From Spirosoma sp. (GTDB taxonomy: Bacteria; Bacteroidota; Bacteroidia; Cytophagales; Spirosomataceae): 64,000 bases of DNA. The stretch covers positions 310,001-374,000 of the forward strand of contig NZ_JAPLET010000017.1 of NCBI RefSeq assembly GCF_026391055.1. Reading direction: 5' to 3'. The stretch's first letter is position 1. Every line of letters begins with the position of its first letter. The notes under the pieces are model-generated. The model did not search any database, had not been told where the DNA came from, and saw only the letters and a list, made by a program, of their open reading frames with translations. Position numbers and translations under genes: made by a program. Positions 57,877 to 62,916 of the stretch are shown in pieces.

Positions 57877-59439
57877 GTGAGTAATGAATTAGTTATCAGT
57901 TCGACTCAGAAAGGTGATCGGATTGCGCTCTTGCAGAACAAGAGATTGCTGGAGTATCACGAAGAAGAGTTAGACAGCAGCTTTACCGTTGGCGATCTAT
58001 ACTTAGGAACAGTCAAAAAACTATCTTCAGGGCTCAACGCTGCTTTTGTGGACGTTGGCCATGAGAAAGATGGCTTCTTGCACTACCAGGACTTGGGACC
58101 GAATATCAATTCGCTCAACAAGCTTGTTAAAGATGTAATCGCCAAGCGCGTCACTACCGGGCGGCTCAACCAAAATCAGTTGGAGCCAGTTATCGATAAA
58201 ATTGGGAAAATCGATAAGGTACTGACAAAAAACGCTCCTATTCTGGTTCAGATAGTTAAGGAACCTATCTCGACCAAAGGTCCACGCCTTTCCTGCGACA
58301 TTTCTATTGCCGGACGTTATTTAGTTCTGGTACCATTTTCGGATGGGGTTAACCTGTCAAAAAAAATCACCGACCGTGCCGAGCGGTCGCGGCTGATGCG
58401 GCTGATGTCGTCGCTTAAGCCTAAAAACTTTGGTGTAATCGTTCGCACTGTTGCGCAGGATAAAGATGTTGAAGAACTCGATCGGGATCTGCAACACTCA
58501 CTTGCCAAATGGGACCAGGCCATAAAATCGCTTTCAGAAGCGAAACCCCGTGATAGAATTCTGGGCGAGATGAATCGGGCTTCGTCTATTCTGCGGGATA
58601 TGCTCAATGAATCCTTCGAGAGCATTACCGTCGACACCCGCGAGTCGTTCGATGAAATCAGGGATTACATCCATACCATTGCGCCCGATAAAGAGAAAAT
58701 TGTAAAACTCCATACCGGTAAAACAAAAGTTTTTGAAGCACTAGGGCTGGAAAAGCAACTCAAATCGTTGTTTGGCCGCTCGGTTAGCTTACCTGGTGGC
58801 GGTTATCTAATTATTGAACATACCGAAGCATTGCACGTAATTGACGTCAATAGCGGTAACAAATCAAATTCGGAGGAAGATCAGGAGGCAACGGCTATTA
58901 GCGTAAACCGCGAAGCGGCTAAAGAAATAGCTCGACAGCTCCGGTTGCGCGATATGGGTGGCATTATTGTCATCGATTTCATTGACATGAAGAAAGCAGA
59001 AAACAAAAAACTTCTGCAGGACATCATGCGCGACGAAATGAAGCCGGAGCGATCGAAGTTTACCATTCTTCCATTAACGAAGTTTGGTTTAATGCAGATA
59101 ACGCGCCAGCGGGTTAGGCCAGAAATGAACATTGTTACCCGCGAGGTTTGCCCTACCTGCGGAGGTACCGGTACTATTCAGGCCAGCGTTCTGGTGACCG
59201 ATGTTATTGAGAATAATCTCGACTATATTCTGACCAAACAGAATGAACGTGGCATATCTATTTCAATGAACCCATTCTTATACGCTTATTATACTAAAGG
59301 CATCTACTCAAAACAGATGCAGTGGTACATGAAGTACAAAACATGGGTTAAGATCGTCAAAGACACATCTTTAGGCATTGTTAACTTCAAATTTTTCAAT
59401 AAGTCAGGAGAGGAAATTGAGGTTAGTAATAACACCTAG
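57877..59439 (+). CDS. rng: Ribonuclease G/E family endoribonuclease
   Basis: A 520-residue RNase G that cuts 5'-monophosphorylated RNAs and helps mature 16S rRNA. It starts at a GTG (SNELVISSTQKGDRIALL). The S1 domain (about 38-130) has VGDLYLGTVKKLSSGLNAAFVD. The catalytic metal Asp residues are in HVIDVNSGNK and GGIIVIDFIDMK. The zinc-link motif CPTCGGTGTI (about 425) permits dimerisation. It lacks the long RNase E scaffold tail, so RNase G is the better name. A very strong bidirectional terminator follows. Confidence 0.94.
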   Translation: MSNELVISSTQKGDRIALLQNKRLLEYHEEELDSSFTVGDLYLGTVKKLSSGLNAAFVDVGHEKDGFLHYQDLGPNINSLNKLVKDVIAKRVTTGRLNQNQLEPVIDKIGKIDKVLTKNAPILVQIVKEPISTKGPRLSCDISIAGRYLVLVPFSDGVNLSKKITDRAERSRLMRLMSSLKPKNFGVIVRTVAQDKDVEELDRDLQHSLAKWDQAIKSLSEAKPRDRILGEMNRASSILRDMLNESFESITVDTRESFDEIRDYIHTIAPDKEKIVKLHTGKTKVFEALGLEKQLKSLFGRSVSLPGGGYLIIEHTEALHVIDVNSGNKSNSEEDQEATAISVNREAAKEIARQLRLRDMGGIIVIDFIDMKKAENKKLLQDIMRDEMKPERSKFTILPLTKFGLMQITRQRVRPEMNIVTREVCPTCGGTGTIQASVLVTDVIENNLDYILTKQNERGISISMNPFLYAYYTKGIYSKQMQWYMKYKTWVKIVKDTSLGIVNFKFFNKSGEEIEVSNNT

Positions 59440-59465
59440 CCGTATAGTAAAATTTTACCATACGA

Positions 59466-59518
59466 CTAAAAAGGTAATAGCCAAAAACGCTGGGCGTTTT
59501 TGGCTATTACCTTTTTAG
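59466..59518. terminator. Bidirectional terminator, perfect 25-bp stem
   Basis: Bases 59466-59490 pair perfectly with 59494-59518 around the loop TGG. AAAAA and TTTTT on the flanks make it work both ways, between rng and the acyltransferase gene. Confidence 0.9.
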
Positions 59519-59532
59519 AAAGAGTATATTAA

Positions 59533-60648
59533 TTAGCGAAGTACTTCCATTTCCAGCAGTTCTCCAAATACTTCCTGTCCTACGAGTGCTTCTATTGACT
59601 CGACTTCCTTCAGGTTCATGAGGAGATCCCGCAAATCTTCTGTTATTTCATACGTCTGATAATTCTGTCTGTCGAAGAGGATAGGCGCCTGTTGAAGATC
59701 ACAGAGCGAATATCGTTCTTCATTGAAAACCGGTTGAAAATCAGCCCGTTTTGATAGGCTGTTCAGCGGCTTTTCAGGCTCTAAAAATAGGTGCATATAA
59801 TTCCACCCTTCCCATTGTTCGGGATATTTGTTTAGAAAAGGCCAGAAAGCATCATATAGCTGCTGCATAGCTTCCTGGCAATATAGCTCCCGGTCACTTC
59901 GTACAATTGGCCTTATCGGTTTGAGATAGTGCAGCGTATTCATACTATCGGCACCCCGATAACTTACAACGGGTACAATGGGAACTCCTGTTACATGCGA
60001 TAGATAACCAACCCCTTTGCGGGTTAAAACACGTCGGTTACCAAATCGTACGGATAAAAATTGTGCTTCATCTCCGGCATCGGGAAATGTTTCCGGACTG
60101 CCATCTACATAAACGATAAGTGAGCGACCTGCTTTTAGCTCCCGTAGAACGGTTAATCCTGCCGACGGTCTACCAGCCTCTACTACGCGAAAGACATTTG
60201 TTAAGCCATGCTTTTTACGCAACCCTTCGATGTGCTCTGCCATACCGTCACCCTGACTTCGGTTCATGTTACTACCTACGAGCAGTACACAATCAACTCC
60301 CTGCCTAAAAAGCACACTAGTCAGTAAGCGATAAGATCCAAGATGGTACGTACAATAGATTCGAGGGCCTTCTGCGTGCTTACCTACCTTCCTCCTTCCG
60401 CGTAGATTTACTAAATCACCGGCACTTAAAAACTGCTGGTCGAAGGTGGTGAAAATCTGCTGCAACAATAGATCCCGGAACATTGTTTCATGTTTTTGCC
60501 GGGGAATTGTCGGCAGGATATTTTCAACTGTGGCAGAGAACGTGGTGAATTTCATGAGGTAGCCTTGCTCTTTAGCAAGGTCTACCTTCTCGAAGTGTGC
60601 ACGGCAGTGATCAAGTTCTTGTTTGTACAGTTGCTTTGCGGTCAGCAT
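59533..60648 (-). CDS. Lipid A-type acyltransferase with a PqqD-like C-terminal tail
   Basis: A 371-residue protein. The first 300 residues resemble the LpxL/HtrB (LABP) acyltransferase family: IYCTYHLGSYRLL holds the active-site His region, with RRKVGKHAEGPRI before it, then LIVYVDGSPETFPDAG and VLTRKGVGYLSHVTGVPIVPV. There is no N-terminal membrane helix, unlike true LpxL. The last 65 residues (FNEERYSLCDLQQAPILFDR, YEITEDLRDLLMNLKEVES) are not part of that family; their pattern recalls PqqD-like recognition domains of peptide-modifying enzymes. It starts 13 bases after a 54-codon Cys-Cys peptide gene. Acylation of that peptide is my inference; a role in lipid modification is the alternative. 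Confidence 0.75.
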   Translation of the reverse strand: MLTAKQLYKQELDHCRAHFEKVDLAKEQGYLMKFTTFSATVENILPTIPRQKHETMFRDLLLQQIFTTFDQQFLSAGDLVNLRGRRKVGKHAEGPRIYCTYHLGSYRLLTSVLFRQGVDCVLLVGSNMNRSQGDGMAEHIEGLRKKHGLTNVFRVVEAGRPSAGLTVLRELKAGRSLIVYVDGSPETFPDAGDEAQFLSVRFGNRRVLTRKGVGYLSHVTGVPIVPVVSYRGADSMNTLHYLKPIRPIVRSDRELYCQEAMQQLYDAFWPFLNKYPEQWEGWNYMHLFLEPEKPLNSLSKRADFQPVFNEERYSLCDLQQAPILFDRQNYQTYEITEDLRDLLMNLKEVESIEALVGQEVFGELLEMEVLR

Positions 60649-60661
60649 GGCATACAGTAGG

Positions 60662-60826
60662 TTATCGGGTAGCGACTATTTTACCACTAGGGCCCAAATC
60701 CCATTCGCTGCAGCAACGGGGTGTGTCACCAAGGAATTTAAGGAGGTTGGCCGATTCAGATTTAGCAATTGAGTTAGAGATTGCTTTTACAACTTGGGCT
60801 GGTTTGATAGCGAATTGCTTTTTCAT
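60662..60826 (-). CDS. 54-residue peptide, candidate modified-peptide precursor
   Basis: A 54-codon gene beginning MKKQFAIKPAQVVKAISNSI and ending with the segment FLGDTPRCCSEWDLGPSGK and a few more residues. The N-terminal half is a basic amphipathic helix with no export signal. The C-terminal third has a Cys-Cys pair (38-39), Asp, Trp, Gly and Pro, like a RiPP core. I chose the ATG at 60826; a longer frame to 60892 has no better start. It is the first gene of a two-gene minus-strand operon with the acyltransferase (13-base gap) and has a TAGCTTTG box upstream. It is not a known family to me. Confidence 0.6.
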   Translation of the reverse strand: MKKQFAIKPAQVVKAISNSIAKSESANLLKFLGDTPRCCSEWDLGPSGKIVATR

Positions 60827-60871
60827 GATAGTTATTGATTGGCTTGTGTTTGTAGTTCCTTTTTGGTGATA

Positions 60872-60879
60872 CAAAGCTA
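60872..60879 (-). promoter_or_regulatory. Candidate -7 box for the peptide/acyltransferase operon
   Basis: TAGCTTTG on the minus strand (60879-60872) fits TAnnTTTG and lies 45 bases before the peptide ATG. ATTG occurs 20 bases further upstream. The divergent LytTR gene starts at 60985, so this 158-base gap serves both. Confidence 0.45.
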
Positions 60880-60984
60880 CCGGCTTAATCAAGGGCCATC
60901 AATGGTGAAAAATGTCCGAATCTACGCTTGGAATTAGTTAATTATTACCACTATCTTAGTAAGAGTTTTGAATAAGGAGACAGC

Positions 60985-62007
60985 ATGAAGGAAATTCAAC
61001 TAACGCGGGGCTTCCTAAGAAAACCAACAAATAGCGTATTGATTCTGTTGAGCATCGTATTGCTAATAGAGGCCTTATCGTGGTCTATTGGTTACGATAT
61101 AAAAGCTCATAAAGTGCAGGAAGCCGGTGGCTATTTGCACTATGTAGGCCTATTACTACGCTCGTTTTTTATTCCAGAGCTGGTTACTCTTTTTATTACT
61201 GTCACCCTACTCAACCATTTCCATCATTGGTTTAATTTGAGGAACATTTCCAACGACTGGCGGTCTATCGGAAATTACGAGTTACAGTTCCTTCCCGTTT
61301 TACTAATCGCTTTTTGGGTATTCAATCCGATTACTCAAACAATACGTTATCTCCTGGTCTTCTTTCCAAATTATTCTATTAGTGGCTATTGGGAAAAATA
61401 CATTGTCGAAACGTTCCGGTGGAATGTATACTTCACGTATTTATTTCCGATTCTGCTAATAGGTTATATCGCGCTGAACATCTCTCTCCTTCAGGATTAT
61501 CTAAAGCAAAGGCGAGAAGCCTTAGAGGCTGCGGAGGCCGAAGCCGCTAAAGTGGCTCAGGAGGCACTTGCTTTATCGGCAACGTTTTCGCCAAAGCCCA
61601 TTGTCCCATCGCCTTACTTGTCTTATCTGAAAGGGAAAAATCCGCTGGGTGAATTGGATTTTCCGGTTAATGATGTCTATTATTTTACTATTGAAGAACG
61701 ATTTTACTACGCTGAGTTGGCCAAAGGACGTTATTTAATCAGTAAGACGTTAAATGACCTGGAAGCGGAGCTGGACCCCACTCAGTTCTTTCGTATCAAA
61801 CGTGACTATATCGTTAACCGACAAGCGGTATTGAATTACGCTTATTGGGAGAATGGTAAATACATTGTTCGGCTCAATGTTCTTGAAGGCCATGATATAA
61901 TTGTCCCACGGGCCCGAATGCAGGAATTCAGGGAGTGGCTTCAAAATAATCAGCGCCCTCTATCCAGCACAGACTCTCTGGAAAAAACGTTTACAGATAG
62001 TTTTTGA
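60985..62007 (+). CDS. Membrane LytTR-family transcriptional regulator
   Basis: A 340-residue one-component sensor-regulator. Four transmembrane helices fill the first 175 residues (near 17-37, 50-78, 104-132 and 155-176), a short Ala/Glu coiled coil follows (about 180-205), and a LytTR DNA-binding domain lies at about 225-330. That domain includes YYFTIEERFYYAELAKGRYL, FFRIKRDYIVNRQAVLNY and IIVPRARMQEFREWL. Membrane signals are thus passed directly to DNA. It is divergent from the peptide/acyltransferase pair, and control of that promoter is inferred from position. Its 3' end overlaps the convergent LuxR gene by 17 bases. Confidence 0.88.
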   Translation: MKEIQLTRGFLRKPTNSVLILLSIVLLIEALSWSIGYDIKAHKVQEAGGYLHYVGLLLRSFFIPELVTLFITVTLLNHFHHWFNLRNISNDWRSIGNYELQFLPVLLIAFWVFNPITQTIRYLLVFFPNYSISGYWEKYIVETFRWNVYFTYLFPILLIGYIALNISLLQDYLKQRREALEAAEAEAAKVAQEALALSATFSPKPIVPSPYLSYLKGKNPLGELDFPVNDVYYFTIEERFYYAELAKGRYLISKTLNDLEAELDPTQFFRIKRDYIVNRQAVLNYAYWENGKYIVRLNVLEGHDIIVPRARMQEFREWLQNNQRPLSSTDSLEKTFTDSF

Positions 62008-62686
62008 CAGCAATACTATACTTTGGTAACTGTCGACAGCCGTTCAGCTCCAGTTTTTTTGCAATATGTGCCTTATGATTCACTGCCGTTCGGTAGCTGA
62101 TATTCAACTTCTCGGCGATTTCACTTGCGGTATTACCATTTGCAATCATCCGTAAAACTTCACGTTCCCGTTGTGTTAGTCGGTTAAGTTCATCGCGCGT
62201 TCTATCTGATATTACCTCTATTCCAAAGTTCTTAAGTAAGCCCATGAAACCGTTGCTATAATAGCAACCTCCATTGCTTACCGTCTGGAAACAACGATAC
62301 AACTCATCCAGTCCATCTGTAGCATACAGAAAGCCGAAGAATCCGATCTTCATGGCATTGGCTACCATTCTGAGGTCAGGATTTCGGGTGTATAAAATAA
62401 ATTTGGTTTGCTGATTTGACTCCTGCATTTGCTCAACGATATCGAAGCTACGCTGCCCGGAAATCTCTGACTCCAGGATAACACATTGTGGACGCTTGAC
62501 CCGGATCTGCTGGAGTGTATCCTCCATCTCCACTGCGCGGCCCACCACATTATAGCCTTGCTCCTTTAAAAGCTGACTTAATACTTCACAATTGAACTGT
62601 TCTGATTGCGCAACGAGAATCGAAAAGTCTCGCCGGCGAATCGCGAATTTTTTAGTGATCTCCTCATCACTGACGAATTGGCTCAT
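61991..62686 (-). CDS. LuxR/NarL-type regulator with degenerate receiver domain
   Basis: A 231-residue regulator. The receiver-like domain (about 20-135) keeps the fold but not the phosphorylation site. The expected Asp is Glu72 in CVILESEISG, the acidic pocket before it is AQSE instead of DD, and the conserved Lys is Ala122 (FGFLYATDG). The LuxR DNA-binding domain (about 165-228, LTQREREVLRMIANGNTASEI, LNISYRTAVNHKAHIAKKL) is intact. It is probably phosphorylation-independent, perhaps locked on by the Glu. I chose the ATG at 62686; the frame is open to 62839 through a long inverted repeat. It overlaps the convergent LytTR gene by 17 bases. Confidence 0.85.
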   Translation of the reverse strand: MSQFVSDEEITKKFAIRRRDFSILVAQSEQFNCEVLSQLLKEQGYNVVGRAVEMEDTLQQIRVKRPQCVILESEISGQRSFDIVEQMQESNQQTKFILYTRNPDLRMVANAMKIGFFGFLYATDGLDELYRCFQTVSNGGCYYSNGFMGLLKNFGIEVISDRTRDELNRLTQREREVLRMIANGNTASEIAEKLNISYRTAVNHKAHIAKKLELNGCRQLPKYSIAVKNYL

Positions 62687-62752
62687 GACATTCTTCACGT
62701 ATAGATGGATCAATGTAACACACTTGCATACTATTCTGTAACACTCAATGTT

Positions 62753-62834
62753 TGAAATCACCATTTTCCCGGACGAAATCAACCATTTAGTTGAAACTTT
62801 TTGGGTGATTTCGTCCGGGAAAATGGTGATTTCA
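62753..62834. repeat. Perfect 29-bp inverted repeat
   Basis: Bases 62753-62781 (TGAAATCACCATTTTCCCGG and nine more) are the exact reverse complement of 62806-62834, with a 24-base loop. It lies 66 bases before the LuxR-type regulator start and 82 before the helical protein start, in the shared divergent promoter region. There is no T run. It could be a large operator, a cruciform or a miniature mobile element. Confidence 0.9.
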
Positions 62835-62916
62835 CGCATAACGGTTTGCTTTCAGCGTAAAGTCAGGTCTACTTTTGGTTATCCAATTGCAAAAAACATA
62901 TTTTGACCATCGGGCG

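Follow-up and report, generated by a model that had tools for sequence, protein, structure and literature searches.

A ribosomal precursor-type peptide gene linked to the gene of a LABP-related enzyme with a predicted C-terminal peptide-recognition domain in Spirosoma

A 64-kb stretch of Spirosoma sp. DNA (hereafter the window), part of a home genome of 7.98 Mb, carries two adjoining genes that may form a minimal cassette of the kind that yields ribosomally synthesized and post-translationally modified peptides (RiPPs). The first encodes a putative 54-aa precursor peptide (P0001; 60662..60826, minus strand) with a conserved front part, MKKxFxIK...AKxE, and a back part that is variable around Cys39. 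The second encodes a 371-aa acyltransferase-like enzyme (P0002; 59533..60648, minus strand) that is related to lipid A and phosphatidylinositol-mannoside acyltransferases and has an extra C-terminal domain. A preliminary description of this DNA, made from its letters, had placed the 54-codon gene 13 bases upstream of the 371-codon one and had pointed to Cys38-Cys39, Trp, Gly and Pro in the peptide; the coordinates of the open reading frames (ORFs), both on the minus strand, agree with that spacing, and the residues are all present as described. We consider it probable that the enzyme is a LABP-related peptide acyltransferase guided by a RiPP recognition element (RRE), and the product of the cassette may act as a signal.

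The linkage between the two genes was complete in the genomes that we searched. At all 44 enzyme loci of the comparison set (L001-L044, 33-100% identity, window copy included) a same-strand peptide ORF was found upstream of the enzyme, the nearest peptide copy lying 10-38 nt from the enzyme start. We built a peptide profile (A2) from 40 of the 50 peptides of these loci, omitting identical or nearly identical sequences (one copy each of L002, L017 and L018, and those of L008, L026, L027, L030, L036, L039 and L040). At E<=0.01 this profile detected peptides at 53 places, spread over 45 of the 150 family genomes (one copy in 39 genomes, two in four and three in two), every one of them within 2 kb of an enzyme; an extra ORF picked up at L048 was judged spurious. 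The pairing first noticed in the window is therefore kept in 45 of the 45 peptide-bearing genomes. In the home genome the only place found was the locus itself, with an E-value of 1.4e-20, the window peptide being itself part of the profile. Plain synteny of an old housekeeping neighbourhood could in principle account for such linkage, and RNase G and DnaG genes are indeed kept in seven contexts near the window (L031, L032, L033, L066, L067, L068 and L071; the first three may duplicate other genomes of the set). However, neither gene was found in L063, L064 and L070, which hold the pairs of L042, L035 and L041, and yet the peptide and enzyme genes stay there together with the genes of two regulators, of LytTR and LuxR type. 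Furthermore, 105 of the 150 family genomes have no peptide, and among all 150 no peptide place was found without an enzyme. Because the four genes stay together where the flanks change, synteny alone is disfavored, and we regard it as highly improbable.

The enzyme family extends somewhat beyond the peptide-linked loci. Nine enzyme places in the family genomes have no peptide; these are divergent homologs, 23-32% identical, in which the tail motif is present. The nearest named relative of the window enzyme that was found is from S. fluviale (89% identity). A search with the single enzyme sequence matched three of 395 phylum genomes, all within the family, and an enzyme profile matched 26 of 241 genomes at the level of the order (E<=1e-8), although some of these, with E-values of about 1e-9 to 1e-11, are possibly no more than ordinary LABP enzymes, and six of 345 at the level of the class (E<=1e-15), three of them in the family. 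In a 32-row tree that took in 17 of the 44 peptide-linked enzymes, these 17 formed one side of a branch with support 96/94.

Conservation within the peptide is concentrated in its front part. Mean entropy in the A2 alignment was 1.59 for residues 1-24, 2.56 for residues 25-37 and 2.53 for residues 40-54. F5, E24 and C39 were invariant in the 40 aligned peptides, K22 was present in 39, and position 38 was occupied by C in 33 and by S in seven. A conserved front followed by a variable back is what the leader and core of RiPP precursors typically show and, judged from sequence, the locus has components expected of a RiPP system, namely a ribosomal precursor with a conserved leader and a variable core, adjoining its proposed modifying enzyme. 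When ten close pairs of peptide genes were compared (11 had been chosen and one was dropped for unequal lengths), the pooled proportion of synonymous differences (pS) was 0.349 versus 0.061 for nonsynonymous differences (pN). The peptide is under purifying selection and, since it is also completely linked to the enzyme, we consider it a real gene; a chance ORF was rejected on the same two grounds.

The tail of the enzyme (residues 303-371; 59533..59742, minus strand) is predicted to be an RRE-like domain. Modeled in isolation, with the window sequence and those of three named relatives as input, it had a mean pLDDT of 91.2 and the order strand-strand-strand-helix-helix-helix, a three-stranded sheet and then three helices that can be aligned to solved RREs. 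The best VIA-align matches were lasso B1 proteins (6jx3, Z 6.6, rmsd 2.6, 67 residues aligned; 5v1u, Z 6.3; 5v1v, Z 6.2), and ranks 1-10 further contained PqqD (5sxy, Z 5.7), McbB (6grg, 6gos and 6gri, Z 5.0-5.1) and the oxidases BmdC (7ly7 and 7ly4; linked to nonribosomal peptide synthetase) and ThcOx (5lq4), both at Z 5.0-5.3. The matched N-terminal parts of these two thiazoline oxidases are RRE-like. More RRE entries (CteB, PbtF, SuiB) were found at ranks 11-25. Foldseek ranks 1-4 were TbiB1 and the PbtF RRE (prob 0.82-0.95, E 0.2-0.5), and the whole-enzyme model likewise placed the tail on TbiB1 (Z 6.3-6.5, 63-65 residues aligned). Although the scores are singly middling, we read the tail as an RRE because the heads of both match lists agree and the whole domain is covered, with 61-67 of 69 residues aligned to the RRE or PqqD domains of lasso B1, PqqD, McbB and SuiB; on this predicted fold, the assignment is very likely correct. 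The window domain differs from these in sitting at the C-terminus of a LABP-like enzyme. The home genome has one canonical lipid A acyltransferase (L138), and it ends without such a tail. This absence and the RRE-type predicted fold disfavor the idea that the tail is a normal LABP C-terminus, and they bear out the extra tail with a PqqD-type pattern that had originally been noted.

Many distant relatives of the enzyme also lie in RiPP-type contexts. We fetched 17 such contexts, nine of them the peptide-less family enzyme places and eight from the order and class searches, and ten look RiPP-like, with marks that include tandem precursors and M50, LanB, arginase or radical-SAM genes. At L056, a Lant_dehydr_N protein is encoded directly downstream of the enzyme, and the cluster also holds an M50 peptidase, a radical SAM protein, seven tandem precursors of 38-45 aa with VELE[DE]RFETTVAALD[ST]ARC, and KAS, KR, FabA-like, AMP-ligase and thioesterase genes; a gene resembling those of phosphopantetheinyl transferases fell below the cut-off. 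L055, which was not scanned for precursors, has relatives of the L056 cluster genes, dehydratase included. L061 combines an arginase-family protein, a daptide-type M50 protein (below the curated cut-off) and four precursors in tandem. Tandem precursors that contain Cys and whose leaders are related, sharing ELE[DE]R, occur in L058 (five), L059 (three), L062 (three) and L132 (five), the last of which also carries a complete LanB; L060 has two such precursor ORFs, one with Cys, and L133 has one Cys-rich ORF. M50 matches in L058 and L060 were just under the cut-off. In another family, L135 (7769-14184) has two tandem precursors, a UPF0489 protein, a FlmE/OhkG-type radical SAM maturase over the cut-off and two JmjC proteins, one over and one below it; neither FlmE nor OhkG was named among the matches listed in our literature search. 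The picture is less clear for the other seven. Fatty-acid genes are present in L054, which like L055 lay outside the precursor scan and has a LanB-like ORF at its edge, and in L057, where the scanned part yielded no precursor. An ORF adjoining the enzyme in L151 is by eye a radical SAM protein, nothing was evident in L152, and no precursor was recognized in L134, L136 and L137. The last three come from one family (f56), in which enzyme relatives of 440-459 aa share a setting with large secreted-looking ORFs and no recognized precursor, and in which the role may differ.

Fatty-acid-synthesis genes and an RRE-tailed LABP enzyme occur in one cluster at L056:3624-19272, and also in L054, L055, L057, L059 and L132, where, L056 itself having been scanned, the gene names rest on similarity to its genes. 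Several of these clusters add a lantibiotic dehydratase, an M50 protease or tandem Cys-bearing precursors, and we consider them candidate lipid-lanthipeptide hybrids.

These multiple precursors also bear on whether the window peptide is modified by its enzyme or serves it in some other way, as a small regulator or membrane anchor of an enzyme that acylates a lipid or glycan. The LABP ancestry of the enzyme would suit such an accessory role, as would the basic, possibly helical front half that the preliminary description saw in the peptide. However, the predicted RRE tail speaks against it, and several relatives have multiple precursors per enzyme while six of 45 loci have two to three peptide copies, which is why we take the peptide to be a substrate and not a subunit. 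We are accordingly rather confident that the peptide is the substrate of the enzyme, and consider the accessory role improbable.

The catalytic region of the enzyme is LABP-like (approximately residues 95-282; 59803..60366, minus strand), and its mechanism is proposed by analogy with PatA. The initial reading of an LpxL/HtrB-like acyltransferase has its clearer footing at the family level. Against Pfam PF03279 (Lip_A_acyltrans), P0002 scored E 0.03 and 14.0 bits, under the curated cut-off of 22.3, and nine of the 23 members of the enzyme alignment (A3, from 23 of 53 loci) matched at E<=0.01, the best at 1.1e-8. Two NCBIfam lauroyl acyltransferase models matched 14 and 13 of the 23, and a phosphatidylinositol-mannoside acyltransferase model matched four. 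The sequence relationship to LABP enzymes is thus weak for P0002 by itself and clearer for its family. H102, G104, D182, G212, P223, P226, Q278 and W279, as well as F308 in the tail, were invariant in all 23. No 19-residue segment of P0002 reaches a Kyte-Doolittle mean of 1.5, which agrees with the reported lack of the usual membrane helix, and the home canonical enzyme L138 (290 aa), which keeps HX4E, has by eye a hydrophobic stretch at its start. Available excerpts of a study of PatA describe a relay acid that is a downstream residue and not the HX4D acid, with H126 and E200 74 residues apart, and its authors suggest likewise for HtrB and MsbB (PMC4792965). The distance from H102 to D182 is 80 residues; for the Asp of the home canonical enzyme the distance is 70. 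By analogy and by eye, D182 would match the block-3 acid represented by E200 of PatA.

The peptide-enzyme pair is accompanied by two regulator genes, which, like the RiPP-type clusters of the relatives, are additions to the preliminary description. The first is divergent from the pair and encodes a 340-aa protein (60985..62007, plus strand) with hydrophobic (membrane) segments in its front half and a LytTR domain (PF04397, E 5.4e-21). Tail to tail with it lies the gene of a LuxR/NarL-type regulator with a receiver domain (61991..62839, minus strand), whose annotated ORF start is probably too far upstream. A LytTR homolog was found within 2.5 kb, on the opposite strand, at 45 of 45 peptide loci, and a LuxR-type regulator gene adjoins the LytTR gene in 12 of 12 fetched contexts as well as in the window. 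A LytTR match was obtained in 51 genomes, six of which lack the pair: in five (G002, G029, G038, G054 and G069) the homologs are distant, 34-39% identical, and in G119 a contig end lies near the match. The contexts inspected among these six were those of G002, G069 and G119.

In the mechanism that we propose, the ribosome would make the 54-residue peptide and the C-terminal RRE domain of the enzyme would hold its conserved front half (F5, I7, K22, E24). The catalytic domain would move an acyl group from an acyl-thioester donor (acyl carrier protein or coenzyme A) to the variable back half, with His102 as base and Asp182 as relay acid, and the acceptor would most likely be at or near the invariant Cys39. 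A leader protease and an exporter may act in trans. The acyl-peptide would then most likely feed back on the membrane LytTR and LuxR-type regulators, either as a signal that partitions into membranes or as a secreted product under regulation. We hold these parts with differing confidence. Acyl transfer from an acyl-thioester is probably the reaction; that Cys39 or a residue next to it is the acceptor is tentative, a little short of an even chance; and that the LytTR protein reads the product as a signal is possible but somewhat doubtful. Alternatively, the cassette may make a RiPP, acylated or not, for antagonism (a bacteriocin) or surface conditioning, which LytTR and LuxR proteins merely regulate. 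This alternative competes with the signaling step only and is compatible with either chemistry. LytTR regulatory systems (LRS) of S. mutans control bacteriocins (PMC6193735, text available in part), and a variable back part and tandem copies at some loci are as in bacteriocins, but no immunity or export gene was recognized among 13 scanned neighbors, and the whole peptide is under purifying selection between close pairs. We would not assume a role of this sort, although it is a serious possibility.

Several observations weigh against an RRE-guided acyltransferase with a signaling product. With respect to the tail, Foldseek gave no match at E<=0.001 (best 0.21) and listed WW domains from rank 9, no VIA-align match had Z >=8, the level below which that tool warns of common arrangements, and VIA-align ranks 11-25 also contained GdmN and eight NO66 ribosomal oxygenase rows (Z 3.7-4.7). 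In the catalytic region the HX4D/E acid is absent, being Arg (R107) in 19 of 23 enzymes, Gln, Pro or Gly in four, and D or E in none, and catalysis therefore rests on the analogy with PatA and HtrB; because the relay acid of PatA lies downstream, loss of the HX4 acid alone is no argument for a dead enzyme. The whole-enzyme model, from four sequences, had a mean pLDDT of 43.9, with its catalytic half unusable. The Cys acceptor is a guess, and K22 (39 of 40 peptides) is a rival acceptor. An exporter or dedicated protease was not recognized near the pair in the Pfam scan of 13 neighbors. Lastly, the LytTR gene in G003 looks split into two ORFs of 131 and 203 aa (L063:7741-8744), possibly by a frameshift, and in G138 only the front half of the LytTR protein was matched. 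A search for a structural template with profile A3 yielded no PDB chain, even at E-values as high as 10, and matches of the whole-enzyme model outside the tail (phosphofructokinase, PorX and the like) were taken as common arrangements and not as relatives.

Some of the same features would fit an RRE-guided modification other than fatty acylation, such as acetylation, thioester hydrolysis, cyclization joining Cys to the C-terminus, or condensation with a polar donor. The active site is altered to HLGSYR, with the canonical acid replaced in 23 of 23, hydropathy indicates no membrane helix, and P0002 is only weakly similar to lipid A enzymes. On the other hand, H102 and D182 are invariant in 23 of 23, and a long acyl donor would be in line with the subgroup of relatives that have ketosynthase, dehydratase, reductase, AMP-ligase and thioesterase genes nearby. 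We consider a non-acylating reaction unlikely.

Acylated RiPPs are already known, and the proposed acyltransferase can be compared with several of their pathways, for which we rely on excerpts of the papers cited. Selidamides (phaeornamide, kamptornamide) and nostolysamides are fatty-acylated ribosomal peptides (PMC9505594, PMC10373908, PMC13060382) that likewise derive from leader-containing precursors, the fatty-acylated product being proposed in our case. The excerpts place the selidamide acyltransferases in the GNAT superfamily (PMC9505594, PMC10373908), whereas the window enzyme is LABP-related with an RRE-like domain; no GNAT family was among its family matches, in keeping with the distinction that had been drawn at the outset between a LABP-type enzyme and the GNAT enzymes of known fatty-acylated RiPPs. 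Lipolanthines and goadvionins are hybrids of a ribosomal peptide and a fatty-acid or polyketide chain, an idea that the clusters of relatives with fatty-acid-synthesis and LanB genes resemble; in microvionin and nocavionin the chain is attached N-terminally (PMC10373908), and the enzymes of this group, as far as seen in the excerpts, are not of LABP type. DAG-RiPPs, whose paper has Bacteroidetes among its keywords, are also lipidated, by the general lipoprotein pathway acting on an N-terminal Cys after a signal peptide (PMC12636315); by eye, the window peptide shows no signal peptide. HtrB, LpxL, MsbB and PatA share with the window enzyme a related catalytic part, the invariant His and, as judged by eye, a downstream acid, but the window enzyme lacks the HX4D/E acid and, by hydropathy, a membrane helix, and has the RRE-like tail.

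On the regulatory side, LytTR regulatory systems (HdrRM, BrsRM and the LRS-like operons of Bacteroides) have in common with the window a LytTR regulator with a membrane part. In the Bacteroides systems, as excerpted, transmembrane segments precede the DNA-binding domain, and a TATCTTTG promoter has near it 11-bp repeats with a spacing of 11 bp (PMC6193735). The window differs in that membrane part and LytTR domain form one protein, a separate membrane inhibitor was not recognized here, the neighbor is of LuxR type, and the LytTR gene is linked to a peptide-enzyme pair. ComQXPA and agr systems combine a short precursor, a dedicated modifying enzyme and membrane sensing, with a LytTR output in agr. 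They differ in enzyme chemistry, and no histidine kinase was seen among the scanned neighbors of the window pair.

In the open-access literature, no title among the matches listed joined RiPPs with LABP-type enzymes, nothing paired RiPP with 'lipid A biosynthesis acyltransferase' or 'RiPP recognition element' with 'lysophospholipid acyltransferase', and no paper was found that joins Spirosoma, quorum sensing and peptide pheromone. RiPP, HtrB and LpxL all occur in PMC12298926, which its title identifies as a review of outer-membrane vesicle vaccines; 'acyltransferase' is absent from the main texts of PMC7470986 and PMC12710340 and from PMC12703449. The maturase type was thus not found described among the open-access matches listed, and the signaling module is a candidate. 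According to the excerpts available, GNAT enzymes are responsible for the fatty acylation of RiPP side chains (PMC9505594, PMC10373908) and the lipoprotein pathway for another lipidation (PMC12636315). A self-contained RRE-LABP enzyme, if real, would add a further lipidation route and might be used to lipidate peptides of choice, and the fatty-acid/lanthipeptide hybrid clusters to which its relatives point would merit isolation. The link to the regulators, if functional, would provide an acyl-peptide signaling candidate in this bacterial group, in which we know of no acyl-peptide signaling. A bolder and rather doubtful extension is that LABP-derived enzymes with a fused C-terminal RRE constitute a new class of RiPP maturases that acylate ribosomal peptides, spanning several families of the order and thinly beyond, the acyl chains being supplied in one subgroup by fatty-acid-synthesis genes within the cluster itself; in Spirosoma and its relatives one branch would then have been pared down to a four-gene module (peptide, acyltransferase, membrane LytTR regulator and LuxR-type regulator) that performs acyl-peptide cell-cell signaling, as a Gram-negative counterpart in logic to ComX/agr.

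The -7 consensus of Bacteroidota promoters is TAnnTTTG. A box of this type, TAGCTTTG, lies at 60872..60879 (minus strand) ahead of the peptide-enzyme operon, with a candidate -33 element at about 60897-60903, consistent with the promoter-like box first attributed to the pair. A similar TATCTTTG is described for Bacteroides LRS promoters in the available part of PMC6193735. When the 300 bases ahead of the peptide gene were scanned, 42 of 44 loci had a TAnnTTTG box; there was none in L017 and L018, and the only one in L020 was at -281. Both L018 and L020 have a third peptide copy further upstream, and the stretch scanned there is therefore not the operon start. The intergenic DNA also holds a conserved element, ACTAA-N17-ACTAA, with a 22-bp period (60934..60960), which is the one exact copy in the window. 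Of the 44 loci, 18 have an exact copy; all of these are close to Spirosoma and thus not independent, and a shuffle comparison (mean 0.05 exact) overstates the element because the 18 are related. We take it to be a real footprint in the Spirosoma group. It could be a direct repeat of LytTR type, but a LytTR site is not claimed, since on the other strand the element may represent the -33/-7 promoter from which the regulator gene itself is transcribed.

At its other end, the pair is separated from the convergent RNase G gene by a perfect inverted repeat (59466..59518) with 25 of 25 paired positions in arms 59466-59490 and 59494-59518 and a 3-nt loop. This is probably a bidirectional terminator, as the perfect 25-bp hairpin had been interpreted. 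An imperfect second palindrome (19-nt arms, 89%; 59437-59468) adjoins it and overlaps the end of the RNase G gene. The 13 window neighbors, both regulators included, were mostly housekeeping by Pfam scan, with one CNNM/CorC membrane protein, one DUF3500 protein and three without a match; an S8 protease gene lies approximately 9 kb from the pair. By eye, the receiver domain of the LuxR-type regulator appears to have Glu at the expected position of the phosphorylated Asp, and may escape phosphorylation. Elsewhere in the family genomes we found stand-alone homologs, of about 180 aa and without a LytTR domain, of the membrane half of the LytTR regulator (L140:5007-5543, L141:4828-5391, L142:4992-5522, L143:5185-5736 and L144:5158-5703), which are possibly decoys or antagonists of the same sensor.

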